A stretch of 64,000 nucleotides of DNA from Thermoleophilia bacterium (GCA_020848615.1 JADLHW010000011.1:41799-105798), one strand, 5' to 3'. Positions 47,579 through 53,008 are shown, counted from the stretch's first letter. The notes: generated by a model not told the origin, from the sequence alone. Program-made: numbers and translations.

Positions 47579-47863
47579 CTACTTGGCGAGGGCGGCGAAG
47601 CGCATGAACGTCGCCACCGCCTCCTCGAACTGCTCGGTGCAGTCCGTGCCGCCGTCGGCCACGCACGTGCGCAGCCGCTCGGAGATGAGGTGCAGGCCCA
47701 CCTGGTCGAGCGCGGCCTTCACCGCGGACAGCTGGGTGAGGACCTCCCGGCACGCGGCGTCCTGCTCCAGCATGCGCTGCACCCCCCGGAGCTGCCCCTC
47801 GGCGCGGCGGAGCCGCACCAGGAGCTGCTCGCGGGACGCGTCCGGTGCCGCGGAGGTGGACAT
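47579..47863 (-). CDS. CsoR/RcnR-family (DUF156) transcriptional repressor, Cys-Arg-Cys type
   Basis: 94 residues, all helical. LLVRLRRAEGQLRGVQRMLEQDAACREVLTQLSAVKAALDQVGLHLISERLRTCV is the DUF156 fold. Cys38 and Cys67, 29 residues apart, match the two cysteines of CsoR (Cys36/Cys65 in the mycobacterial protein), but the intervening copper-binding His is Arg63 here. A C-x-C pair without His is the pattern of CstR-type persulfide sensors, so sensing of reactive sulfur or oxidants is more likely than copper. It is the last intact gene of the trxB-trxA-fmdB-csoR operon (TGATG overlap with fmdB) and probably represses that operon. Confidence 0.85.
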   Translation of the reverse strand: MSTSAAPDASREQLLVRLRRAEGQLRGVQRMLEQDAACREVLTQLSAVKAALDQVGLHLISERLRTCVADGGTDCTEQFEEAVATFMRFAALAK

Positions 47864-48099
47864 CAGTGCCCGCAGCCGCAGCCGCCGCCGCAGCACCCGC
47901 CGCCGCCCCCGCCGAAGCCGGTCACCGTGGGCGCGGCATCCGACCGCGACGGCCGGGCGGTGACGAAGCCCGTGAACCGCTGCGTGACGTGCGCCGACCC
48001 GCAGCCGGGGCACACGCGGTCCTCGTCCCGCAGGAACCCCTGCCGGAAGCGCTCGAAGTCGGCCGAGCAGTCGTCGCAGGTGAGGTCGTACGTCGGCAC
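47863..48099 (-). CDS. FmdB-family zinc-ribbon protein with Gly/Cys-rich tail
   Basis: 78 residues from GTG 48099 with GGAAGGGAG upstream. The FmdB zinc ribbon is PTYDLTCDDCSADFERFR...VCPGCGSAHVTQRFTGF, with Cys8/Cys11 and Cys30/Cys33. The C-terminus GGGGGGCCGGGCGCGH adds four cysteines and a terminal His and could bind additional metal or form disulfides. FmdB proteins are often called regulatory, but function is unclear. Placement between thioredoxin and a thiol-sensing repressor suggests a redox-responsive role. Confidence 0.8.
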   Translation of the reverse strand: MPTYDLTCDDCSADFERFRQGFLRDEDRVCPGCGSAHVTQRFTGFVTARPSRSDAAPTVTGFGGGGGGCCGGGCGCGH

Positions 48100-48116
48100 C
48101 GTGGTCTCCCTTCCGG

Positions 48117-48440
48117 TCAGTCGCTGAGGCCGAGCTGGCGCTCCAGCTGGGCCTTCGGCATCGCGCCGACGGCCTGCCGCACCACCTGCCCGTGCTCGAA
48201 CAGGGCCAGGAACGGGATGCCCTGCACCCCGTACCTCGCGGCCAGCGCGCCGTGCTGGTCCACGTCGAGCTTGCCCACCACCAGTGAGTCCGAGCGCTCC
48301 TTGGCGATCTGCTCCACCACCGGGGCGATCATGCGGCACGGGCCGCACCACTCCGCCCAGAAGTCGATGAGCACCGGCTTCTCGTTCTCCAGCACCACCG
48401 CCTGGAAGTTGTCGGCGGTGATCTCCATGACGTCGGCCAT
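48117..48440 (-). CDS. trxA: Thioredoxin
   Basis: 107 residues, standard length. DFWAEWCGPCRMIAPVVEQIA carries the WCGPC redox centre (Cys32/Cys35), and VQGIPFLALFEHG contains the cis-Pro loop. It reduces protein disulfides in the cytoplasm using electrons from the thioredoxin reductase encoded 43 bases upstream. The next genes in the operon encode a Cys-rich FmdB protein and the CsoR-family repressor, both candidate redox partners. Confidence 0.95.
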   Translation of the reverse strand: MADVMEITADNFQAVVLENEKPVLIDFWAEWCGPCRMIAPVVEQIAKERSDSLVVGKLDVDQHGALAARYGVQGIPFLALFEHGQVVRQAVGAMPKAQLERQLGLSD

Positions 48441-48483
48441 CGGGGGCGTCCTTTCGTGTGTGCGTGAAGGGTGAGGGGTTCCG

Positions 48484-49443
48484 TCAGGCGCCGGCGGTCT
48501 CGGCGGCCTCGGCGGGCCGGGCGTTCTCCTGCGCCTCGAGCCAGCGCTCGGCGTCGATGGCGGCCTCGCAGCCGCTGCCCGCGGCGGTGATCGCCTGCTT
48601 GTAGACGGTGTCCTGCACGTCGCCGCAGGCGAACACGCCCTCGACGCTGGTGCGGGTGCCGTCGGTGACGATGTAGCCGGCCTCGTCGAGGGCGAGCTGC
48701 CCGGCGAACAGGCCGGTGTTGGGGGTGTGGCCGATCGCGACGAACATGGCGGACGCGGGGATGATCTCGTGCTCGCCGGTGACGGTGTCGCGCACCTTCA
48801 CGCCCTCCACCGCGACGTCGCCCACGACCTCCTCGACCACCGCGTTCCAGCGCACGGCGATCTTGGGGTGCTCCAGCACGCGCTGCACCATGATCTGCGA
48901 GGCGCGGAAGCTGTCGCGGCGGTGCACGACCGTGACCTTGGACGCCATGCGGGCGAGGACCAGGGCCTCCTCCATGGCGGAGTCGCCGCCGCCCACCACG
49001 ACCATCTCCTTCTCGCGGAAGAAGAAGCCGTCACAGGTGGCGCAGGAGGACACCCCGTAGCCGCGCAGGCGGGTCTCGCTCTCGATGCCCAGCCACTTCG
49101 CGGTGGCGCCGGTGCTGATGATCACCGCGTCCGCGCGGTGCTCGCCGTCGTCGGTCCACACGCCGAAGGGCCGCGAGGAGAGATCCACGCGGGTCACGTC
49201 GACGGTCCTCAGGTCGGCCCCGAAGCGCTCGGCCTGGTCCCGGAACATCTGCATGAGCTCGGGACCCTGCACGCCCTGCGGGAAGCCCGGGTAGTTCTCG
49301 ACGTCGGTCGTGGTCATGAGCTGCCCGCCCGCCGCGTATCCCTCGATGGCGAGGGGCGCGAGGCTGGCGCGCGCCGTGTAGATCGCCGCGGTGAGACCCG
49401 CGGGACCCCCGCCGATGATGATGACGTCGTGATGCTCGGGCAC
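48484..49443 (-). CDS. trxB: Thioredoxin reductase
   Basis: 319 residues from GTG 49443 (VPEHHDVIIIGGGPAGLTAAIYTARA), which has GGAGG 4 bases before it. An ATG at 49467 would add eight residues but lies within the operator palindrome. FAD-binding GGGPAG, the redox-active CATC in SSCATCDGFFF, NADPH-binding VVVGGGDSAMEEAL and C-terminal EGVFACGDVQD are all intact. It reduces thioredoxin with NADPH and starts the trxB-trxA-fmdB-csoR operon. Confidence 0.94.
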   Translation of the reverse strand: MPEHHDVIIIGGGPAGLTAAIYTARASLAPLAIEGYAAGGQLMTTTDVENYPGFPQGVQGPELMQMFRDQAERFGADLRTVDVTRVDLSSRPFGVWTDDGEHRADAVIISTGATAKWLGIESETRLRGYGVSSCATCDGFFFREKEMVVVGGGDSAMEEALVLARMASKVTVVHRRDSFRASQIMVQRVLEHPKIAVRWNAVVEEVVGDVAVEGVKVRDTVTGEHEIIPASAMFVAIGHTPNTGLFAGQLALDEAGYIVTDGTRTSVEGVFACGDVQDTVYKQAITAAGSGCEAAIDAERWLEAQENARPAEAAETAGA

Positions 49444-49465
49444 GGATCCTCCGCCAGTCGCTGAC

Positions 49466-49481
49466 ATACCCCGAGGGGTAT
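49466..49481. promoter_or_regulatory. CsoR/CstR-type operator palindrome in front of trxB
   Basis: ATACCCC-GA-GGGGTAT, a perfect 7+2+7 inverted repeat. C-tract/G-tract repeats flanked by A/T are the typical operators of DUF156 repressors, and such a repressor is encoded three genes downstream. A minus-strand TAGGAT (49480-49485) resembles a -10 box with TTCGAC 18 bases upstream, which would place the transcription start inside the palindrome, an efficient position for repression. Confidence 0.72.
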
Positions 49482-49646
49482 CCTACCACCGGTGTCCCGG
49501 ACGGTCGAATCACGCTCCGCATGACGACCGGCCCCGCGGTTCGGGGACGTTCCCACCGTCCCCCGCGGCGTCCCTCGCGCGTCAACCGGGTGTCAACGGC
49601 CCCCGGGCACCGAGCCCCGGGGCACCAGCACACCAGGAGGAGCATC

Positions 49647-49877
49647 ATGCTGCCGGTCAACATGGGCACCGCGGACCGGGCCATCCGGTCGATCATCGTC
49701 GCCCCCGCGCTCATCGTCGTCGCCGCCGCCGTCGGTCCCGTCAGCGCGCTCAGCATCCTGCTGTACGCCCTGGCGGCGATCATGCTCCTCACCAGCGCGG
49801 TCTCGTACTGCCCCCTCTACGCTCCCTTCAGGATGCGCACCACGGCCAAGAACGCCGACACCCCCGCGAGGGCGTGA
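49647..49877 (+). CDS. DUF2892 (YgaP-type) small membrane protein
   Basis: 76 residues from ATG with AGGAGGAG 7 bases upstream. NMGTADRAIRSIIVAPALIVVAA and SILLYALAAIMLLTSAVSYCPLYAPFRM are the two membrane helices and the CPLY motif of the DUF2892 family. These proteins often occur fused or adjacent to rhodaneses, as in YgaP, which links the locus to sulfane-sulfur chemistry. It is divergent from trxB, with the operator in between, and coupled by a GTGA overlap to the sigma factor gene. Confidence 0.85.
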   Translation: MLPVNMGTADRAIRSIIVAPALIVVAAAVGPVSALSILLYALAAIMLLTSAVSYCPLYAPFRMRTTAKNADTPARA

Positions 49878-50674
49878 CGACCGGGCCCCACGGGGATGAC
49901 GGGGCCCTGGACGCCGGCGCCTTCGCGGCGCTCGCGCGCGACCGGGGCCCCGCCCTGTTCCGCATCGCGAACGCGGTGGTGCGGAACCGGGCGGACGCCG
50001 AGGACGTGGTGCAGGAGGCCTTCCTGCGCGCCTGGCGCTCCCGCGACCGGTACCGCGGCGAGGGGCCCGCGGGGGCCTGGCTGGGCCGGATCGTCCACAA
50101 CGTGGCCGTGGAGCGCATCCGCGGGAGCCGCGAGGTGCCGGTGGGCGAGATCGACGAACGCTGGGCCGACGACGCCTACACCGTGGAGGCCGAGCGCGTC
50201 GTCGAGCGCGCGGAGACGATCGAGGAGCTCGAGGACGCCCTCATCCACGTGCCCGCCGACCCGCGGGCCGCGCTGCTGCTGCACGACGTGGAGGGGTTGC
50301 CGGTGTCCGAGGTGGCCCGGATACAGGGCGTCACCGAGGATGCCGCGAAGCTGCGCCTGCGGCGCGGCCGGATGGCGCTGGTGAGCGCGCTGGGCCGCGA
50401 GGACGAGGTGCGCCGCGCCACCGACGGGGTTCCGCTGCGCTGCTGGGACGCCCGGCGCTTCGTGAGCGAGTACATCGACGGGGGCCTGTCACACGAGACC
50501 CGCGGCGCGCTGGAGCGGCACCTCGCCGGGTGCCCCACGTGCCCGCCGCTCTACGCGTCGCTGGTGGGGGTGACGGCCGCCCTCGGGAAGCTGCGCGACA
50601 GCGACCGGGTCGTCCCCGCCGGGCTGGCCGCGCGCCTGGCCGCCGTGACCCGCGGGCGAGGTCCCGGCACGTGA
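49874..50674 (+). CDS. ECF sigma factor with fused C-terminal zinc anti-sigma-like domain
   Basis: 266 residues, GTG in a GTGA overlap. Sigma region 2 is RIANAVVRNRADAEDVVQEAFLRAWRSRDRYRGEGPAGAWLGRIVHNVAVERIR; region 4 is DVEGLPVSEVARIQGVTEDAAKLRLRRGRMALVSAL. From about residue 188 the chain continues as RCWDARRFVSEYIDGGLSHETRGALERHLAGCPTC, a ZAS-type zinc finger (Cys190, His216, Cys220, Cys223) usually found in separate anti-sigma factors. The fusion has no frameshift and could make sigma activity directly sensitive to oxidation or zinc loss; this is inference. Confidence 0.85.
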   Translation: MTTGPHGDDGALDAGAFAALARDRGPALFRIANAVVRNRADAEDVVQEAFLRAWRSRDRYRGEGPAGAWLGRIVHNVAVERIRGSREVPVGEIDERWADDAYTVEAERVVERAETIEELEDALIHVPADPRAALLLHDVEGLPVSEVARIQGVTEDAAKLRLRRGRMALVSALGREDEVRRATDGVPLRCWDARRFVSEYIDGGLSHETRGALERHLAGCPTCPPLYASLVGVTAALGKLRDSDRVVPAGLAARLAAVTRGRGPGT

Positions 50675-52450: not shown

Positions 52451-53008
52451 TCAGGACCCCGCGGCGCGCCACACGAGCCGCTGGCCCACGCTCACGGGCC
52501 GGCGGCACGCGGCGTAGTACACGCGGCCCTCCTCGGCCTCGGCGGCGTCCACGATCCGGACGTCGCGGAGCGTGACGACGCCCCATGCGACGAGCACCCC
52601 GGCCACGACCCCCTCGGCCTCGCCGCCGCCGCCCAGGATGCCCACCAGGAACCCCATGAGCGCGGCGGAGGCGACGAACACGCACACGCCCAGCACGGTG
52701 GCCCAGCCGCGCCAGTCACGGGGGCTGGCCTCCAGCCGCCGGGGGGTGCCGGTCTCCCGGACGGCCTCGGGCAGCCGGGCGCTCGGCAGGGCGCCGTTGC
52801 GCATCCAGGACCGCAGGAGGAAGAAGAACAGGATCGCCGTGGGCACCACGGTGACCCCGGCGGTGAGGAGCCAGCCGGGCAGGTCGCCCTCCGGGTCGCC
52901 GGCCTCGAGGCCGGCCCCGGCGGCGAGCAGCAGCACGCCCACCACGATGAGGGTGCGGGCCCACAGCCGGGACAGGCGGGCGTAACCCCACAGGCGTTCG
53001 TTGCTCAC
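52451..53008 (-). CDS. Integral membrane protein, unknown
   Basis: 185 residues from GTG. Four hydrophobic segments are visible: LIVVGVLLLAAGAGLEAG, WLLTAGVTVVPTAILFFFLL, WATVLGVCVFVASAALMGFLVGILGGGG and VVAGVLVAWGVVTLRDV. A short soluble C-terminal tail (RIVDAAEAEEGRVYYAACRRPVSVGQRLVWRAAGS) follows. I recognise no family. The gene is divergent from the MFS gene at 53068, with only 59 bases between, so the two promoters overlap. Confidence 0.6.
   Translation of the reverse strand: MSNERLWGYARLSRLWARTLIVVGVLLLAAGAGLEAGDPEGDLPGWLLTAGVTVVPTAILFFFLLRSWMRNGALPSARLPEAVRETGTPRRLEASPRDWRGWATVLGVCVFVASAALMGFLVGILGGGGEAEGVVAGVLVAWGVVTLRDVRIVDAAEAEEGRVYYAACRRPVSVGQRLVWRAAGS

Follow-up and report, generated by a model that had tools for sequence, protein, structure and literature searches.

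Thioredoxin and thioredoxin reductase form the main thiol-repair system of the cell, and known regulators of thioredoxin operons include SigR-RsrA, OxyR and Spx. The DUF156 (CsoR) family of repressors includes copper-sensing CsoR, CstR and ScCsoR. The nearest published case of a thioredoxin target in this family is TTHA1953 of Thermus thermophilus, which acts on the sox cluster with soxW, binds DNA best with both of its cysteines reduced and represses the soxW thioredoxin (PMC10318464). Our literature search found no report of a CsoR-family repressor acting on a cytoplasmic trxB-trxA operon; most subscription papers lay outside the search, so this is no proof of absence. Here we analyse a 64,000-nucleotide stretch of DNA (GCA_020848615.1 JADLHW010000011.1:41799-105798, hereafter the window) from a 3.64-Mb Thermoleophilia genome resembling those of the Miltoncostaeaceae, a little-studied actinobacterial family. 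The window contains a trxB-trxA-fmdB-csoR operon at positions 49443-47579 on the minus strand, downstream of an ATACCCC-GA-GGGGTAT palindrome, and the sequence comparisons indicate that this is probably a self-regulated thioredoxin operon under a thiol-sensing DUF156 repressor. Each component, be it sensor family, operator type or target system, is known already, while their combination and the arrangement of the cysteines are new. The features of the locus are as follows.

48484..49443, minus strand: trxB, thioredoxin reductase, GTG start (TIGR01292, 403 bits, cut-off 343)
48117..48440, minus strand: trxA, thioredoxin with a WCGPC active site (TIGR01068, 121 bits, cut-off 96.8)
47863..48099, minus strand: fmdB, FmdB zinc-ribbon protein with a Cys/Gly/His tail (TIGR02605, 40 bits; PF09723, 44 bits)
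47579..47863, minus strand: csoR, DUF156 repressor gene, product with C38, R63, C67 and C75 (PF02583, 88 bits; residue table, tree and model)
49466..49481, no strand assigned: putative operator, a perfect 16-bp palindrome ATACCCC-GA-GGGGTAT (TAC-N8-GTA) (single genome occurrence, footprint and spacing)
49480..49488, minus strand: predicted extended -10 element, TGG-TAGGAT, the final two bases within the operator (sequence and relatives)
49504..49509, minus strand: weak -35-like TTCGAC, 18 bp from the -10 (sequence and inference)

TTHA1953 belongs to the same family as the repressor of this operon, and its redox-dependent DNA binding and its thioredoxin target, soxW, located with sox genes (PMC10318464), match what is proposed here, but its sox regulon is distant, its operator lacks G/C tracts and SoxW is a Sox-pathway thioredoxin and not part of a trxB-trxA pair. 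CstR of Staphylococcus, Enterococcus and Streptococcus pneumoniae is likewise a DUF156 protein with two cysteines at the C38/C67 positions and no His, and a TAC-N8-GTA-type operator occurs in the single Firmicutes relative in which a site was found (L160). CstR controls genes for sulfurtransferases, CoA-persulfide reductase or SQR, whereas the gene order here points to trxBA; moreover, C38 is dispensable in the window family, C75 is an extra conserved cysteine and the two appear in separate groups in the tree, the deep nodes of which are weak. ScCsoR (SCO0620) of Streptomyces coelicolor, a sulfane-sulfur sensor, is an actinobacterial non-copper CsoR with two cysteines and an ATACC-N6-GGTAT operator, that is, N8 spacing (PMC7533328), but it controls a persulfide dioxygenase (PDO), a rhodanese and a sulfite exporter, and in the window family a paralogue of its own (L100) represents the PDO-linked type. 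SigR-RsrA places a thioredoxin operon, Streptomyces trxBA, under thiol-redox control (PMC3961337), although the regulator there is a sigma/anti-sigma pair and not a DUF156 repressor.

A sequence-only reading of the window had described the trxB-trxA-fmdB-csoR operon, its perfect palindrome and a divergent DUF2892-sigma pair, and all of these features were confirmed in the window sequence. The same applies to Cys38, Cys67 and an Arg63 at the CsoR His position of the repressor, to which we add a third cysteine, C75. That reading further held that the repressor controls thioredoxin reductase and thioredoxin and does not respond to copper. Control of trxB-trxA-fmdB through the palindrome by a repressor that is not the copper sensor is indeed most likely, because the operon and the operator are conserved and were lost together in one relative, the His is absent, His-type CsoRs are encoded separately and the operator spacing differs. 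The genes of the operon are closely packed, with 43 bp between trxB and trxA, 17 bp between trxA and fmdB and a 1-bp overlap of fmdB and csoR. The GTG at 49443, preceded by GGAGGA, is the most likely start of trxB, since the ATG at 49467 given in the list of open reading frames falls within the palindrome and is therefore an unlikely start. Most of the thiol reduction in the cell probably falls to this operon, because its trxB encodes the sole canonical TrxB, the only match above the cut-off genome-wide, and because the MshC model yielded nothing above the cut-off in the genome (its best match, probably CysRS, scored 232 bits against a cut-off of 485), which leaves no evidence for mycothiol.

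The exact sequence TACCCCNNGGGGTA (12 specified bases) is present once in the 3.64-Mb genome, and no second exact site that would suggest a wider regulon was found there. Since about one match is expected by chance per 64-kb window at up to 3 mismatches, only the perfect form of the palindrome was counted. Because the extended -10 overlaps the palindrome, a repressor bound there would mask both the -10 and the region of the start. In most genera other than g9, the -10 sequence TGNTANNAT is directly fused to ACCC.

To follow the locus across the family, we used 36 further genomes, placed in 12 genera by whole-genome placement, and a few more from a class-wide sample. The order trxB-trxA-fmdB-csoR, on one strand and with short gaps, was found in 38 of the 38 family loci examined, one of which (L085) starts inside trxA at a contig end. 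An operator element of 16-17 bp precedes trxB in all promoters that have a linked csoR and enough upstream sequence (31/31), so that both the palindrome and the gene order, on whose presence in close relatives the sequence-only reading had staked its claim, are retained. When up to 3 mismatches are allowed, 30 of these promoters have the element within 150 bp; an apparent loss in G005 was rejected, as its site lies beyond the 150-bp limit, at -218. Operators with 0-1 mismatches were found in 17/31 trxB promoters, as compared with none of the 9,235 control stretches from the same loci, and operators with up to 3 mismatches in 0.7% of the control stretches. The variant in genus g9 is TACCGG-N-GGGGTA with N9 spacing, and it sometimes extends over the ribosome-binding site. 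In L077, L084, L090-L092 and L094, it is found 18 bp ahead of the start of trxB, with the ribosome-binding GGAGG inside it.

One family member, G011, carries trxB-trxA at the syntenic site and has lost fmdB and csoR (L287, G011:C58:20500-26500). No operator was present within 500 bp of its trxB, and csoR and the operator were thus lost together in this genome. No trxB was found in G016, a draft of 490 contigs, and the contig of G003 breaks off inside trxA and includes the operator. The genes preceding trxB differ in other genera, and those past csoR are not co-directional in the family loci, where a convergent HAD hydrolase recurs. An apparent trxA-fmdB fusion in L075 was rejected as an artefact, a TAG stop separating the two genes.

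The repressor matches PF02583 with 88.3 bits (cut-off 22.8), and its model, a monomer with a mean pLDDT of 85, consists of three helices (residues 11-33, 38-69 and 75-93) that match InrS, CsoR and CstR chains. The RLxR-x-EGQ DNA-binding motif in helix 1 is invariant in an alignment of 35 sequences (R17, R20, E22, G23, Q24 and R26). R63 aligns with the copper-ligand His of CsoR, and the Cys-His-Cys copper site is thus missing in the window repressor; among 34 orthologues, position 63 is R, Q, E, G, S or K and never H. C67 is invariant (38/38) and C75 is present in 37/38 orthologues (33/34 of the residue table and 4 later ones), whereas C38, found at position X, the start of helix 2, in the window repressor, is replaced by P, A or T in 6/38. 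These losses do not support the CstR-type C38/C67 pair of the earlier suggestion as a sensing device in general. In the CsoR tree, the C38-less orthologues form two groups apart from each other, and the operator is kept where readable. In the model, helix 2 has C67 close to its end and helix 3 begins with C75, and since the loop between the helices is five residues long, an intramolecular C67-C75 link is sterically plausible.

In the CsoR tree, the clade of the orthologues is monophyletic (SH 0.906) and CstR of S. pneumoniae belongs to a separate Firmicutes group, with weak deep nodes (SH 0.71 for the non-His clade). FrmR is marked by Pro2, Cys35 and a neighbouring frmA (PMC5016687); residue 2 of the window repressor is Ser, the operon contains no frmA and the FrmR model gave 39 bits (cut-off 133). 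As for RcnR and InrS, R63 and C67 occupy the positions of their His ligands (Y and Z), an N-terminal His is missing and the RcnR model gave 24 bits (cut-off 138). Formaldehyde and nickel/cobalt sensing were rejected on these residues and the neighbouring genes.

The host genome encodes three further CsoRs, two of which have the C-H-C residues and adjoin an HMA-domain protein (L015) and an HMA-containing copper-type P-type ATPase (L016). Both cop promoters carry TAC-N9-GTA, as compared with TAC-N8-GTA at the window trx operator, and no copper efflux or chaperone genes are located beside the window csoR, its neighbours being trxB, trxA and fmdB. We counted the spacing in the loci examined, e.g. 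L015, L016, L082, L100, L158, L221-L240 and L265. Promoters of His-type CsoRs had N9 in 20 cases and N8 in 1, whereas those of non-His CsoRs had N8 in 25 and N9 in 8 (Fisher p = 1.7e-7, uncorrected for kinship). The tree places the single His-type CsoR with N8 (L119) in the non-His clade, and most cases of N9 at trxB within the family come from genomes that encode just one CsoR (g9, G020), G001 being the one exception. Published sites agree with this split. The copper CsoR of Streptomyces lividans and Mycobacterium tuberculosis shares the fold and the RLxR/EGQ motif with the window repressor, whose best matches in the PDB by sequence and by fold include 4adz, but it has the C-H-C site, copper-efflux targets and, in S. 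lividans, a TAC-X9-GTA operator (PMC3902906), while the ScCsoR site is of the N8 type.

These comparisons give good support to the view that the thioredoxin system is controlled through thiols and not through copper. In the reduced cell, a CsoR-type tetramer would bind ATACCCC-GA-GGGGTAT, cover the end of the -10 and repress trxB-trxA-fmdB-csoR. Cys67 would then be oxidised or sulfurated and become linked to Cys75 of the same subunit or, where present, to Cys38 of the neighbouring subunit, upon which the modified repressor would let go of the operator. Thioredoxin reductase and thioredoxin would rise and reduce damaged thiols, and thioredoxin would probably reduce the repressor too, so that repression is restored. 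Release on thiol modification is suggested by the invariance of the repressor thiol C67, and we infer that the Cys67/Cys75 pair acts as the switch. This suggests a self-correcting loop in which thiol damage induces the system that repairs it. Candidates for the natural effector are disulfide, electrophile and sulfane-sulfur stress, and the operon and its conserved context single out none of them.

Several points weigh against this mechanism. G005 retains the operator though its CsoR has Cys67 alone, and a Cys67-Cys75 disulfide therefore cannot serve as the mechanism in all species. Most of the other trx-linked CsoRs also lack C75 and carry C38/C67. Furthermore, a Cu-type paralogue could bind this operator, CsoR-type operators being alike; the N8/N9 spacing speaks against such binding, yet g9 uses N9 at trxB. 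Finally, Cu(I), Zn or Hg can also be bound by two thiols.

Among the alternatives, a CstR-like sulfane-sulfur sensor fares best, although we consider it rather unlikely. Here, persulfide or polysulfide would cross-link Cys38 to Cys67' between subunits, the repressor would be released and TrxB-TrxA would reduce sulfane sulfur to H2S. Such a sensor would fit the C38 and C67 of the window repressor and its lack of the His, the retention of C38/C67 in other trx-linked CsoRs and the operator spacing, which is the same as in the ScCsoR site (PMC7533328). Sulfane sulfur is a credible effector by analogy, because an artificial loop in E. coli with trxA-trxB under CstR lowered sulfane sulfur (PMC6831875). 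However, C38 was apparently lost at least twice among the orthologues, which kept the operator where it can be read, and the DUF2892 neighbour, of the type that had been taken as a link to sulfur, is restricted to the genus. The specific sulfane-sulfur role considered by the sequence-only reading also lacks the expected genes, since the profile matches of the operon proteins included no rhodanese, dioxygenase, SQR, sulfurtransferase or sulfite-export gene and a search of the host genome found no close PDO. In addition, a relative in the same family (L100, G014:C285) has a second CsoR paralogue with C-A-C residues, which is linked to a PDO-like gene of the metallo-beta-lactamase fold and has two TACCCC-N2-GGGGTA sites near that gene, and this distinct paralogue would be the candidate for the sulfane-sulfur job.

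It is unlikely that the repressor is a metal sensor, with a thiophilic metal such as Cu(I) or Zn on Cys67 and Cys75 or Cys38 releasing the operator, the Cys/His tail of FmdB buffering metal and thioredoxin repairing the damage. The DUF156 family is mostly metal-sensing, the FmdB tail is rich in Cys and His, and soft metals can be bound by two or three thiols. Yet the copper-ligand His was never found in the clade, dedicated C-H-C CsoRs adjoin cop genes in the same genome, the operon has no transporter and its operator has N8 and not the N9 of Cu-type sites. Housekeeping autorepression, by which the repressor would hold expression of the thioredoxin operon constant without sensing anything specific, has a slimmer chance still. 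It agrees with the position of csoR as the last gene of an operon apparently repressed by its product and with the survival of G011 without csoR, but the invariant Cys67 and nearly invariant Cys75, next to a drifting C38 and residue 63, suggest selection on thiol chemistry. That csoR is a passenger and a different regulator, such as a Cu-type CsoR paralogue, binds the palindrome is very improbable. Although CsoR operators resemble one another and the genome has three other CsoRs, family genomes with just one CsoR-family match retain the operator, the csoR-less G011 has lost it and the operators of the paralogues are spaced differently.

Links between CsoR and thioredoxin genes were also found outside the family. 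In f4, another Thermoleophilia family, csoR is the gene immediately ahead of trxB, and the operator coincides with the -10 of csoR (four genomes: L099, L221, L225 and L235). In f51, trxA-fmdB has an operator just upstream and a convergent csoR has its own (three genomes: L265-L267), the operator in L265 sitting between TTGACA and TATAAT. The order csoR-PIN/TPR-trxB-trxA with the operator before csoR occurs in f68 and f69 (L269, L157), and in f76 it is fmdB, near csoR, that bears the operator (L268). All of these CsoRs are without the His and most have C38/C67, that of f69 also C75. Chance neighbourhood is an unlikely cause of the repeated linkage, although the lineage counts are small. We tentatively propose that non-copper CsoR control of thioredoxin may be a recurrent circuit in the Actinomycetota, present in several lineages with differing gene orders and the same operator, that sensing in the Miltoncostaeaceae may have moved from C38/C67 to C67/C75 with thioredoxin resetting its own repressor, and that N8 versus N9 spacing may separate non-copper from copper CsoRs within one cell.

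If true, the operon would be a natural counterpart to the artificial CstR-trxA-trxB loop of E. coli, the DUF156 family would gain a target class and the cysteines would provide a testable case of sensor chemistry moving between pairs. Operator spacing would in that case be a simple sequence rule for telling copper from non-copper CsoR targets in genomes. As a side observation from other actinobacterial families, CsoR-type sites close to a non-His csoR were seen at or near the start of an open frame of about 1000 amino acids (L271, L273, L274, L275 and L284), the beginning of which looks by eye like an FAD-linked oxidoreductase.

The FmdB protein of the window ends in CCGGGCGCGH, and family-wide the C-terminal tails read CCGGxCGCG(H) or HAHGGGCGCGxH (L064-L096). 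The conservation of the tail suggests a metal- or thiol-related role.

The divergent neighbours of the operon are as follows.

49647..49877, plus strand: DUF2892/YgaP-like transmembrane protein (PF11127, 54 bits)
49874..50674, plus strand: extracytoplasmic function (ECF) sigma factor with a C-terminal zf-HC2, H-x3-C-x2-C (PF04542, PF08281, PF13490)

The two genes overlap by GTGA, and the zinc finger (zf-HC2) at the C-terminus of the sigma factor resembles those of anti-sigma factors. Outside the window, the pair was found only in G001, the sole other member of the genus, and it is absent elsewhere in the family; we therefore rejected it as part of the module, in which the sequence-only reading had included it. 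A protein encoded at 52451-53008 has no Pfam match, and an apparent homologue, judged by eye from the likeness to coding tails, ends directly upstream of trxB in L065, L070 and L071. Since this gene is 3 kb from trxB in the window genus, it was probably separated from trxB by insertion of the DUF2892-sigma pair and a sugar transferase.

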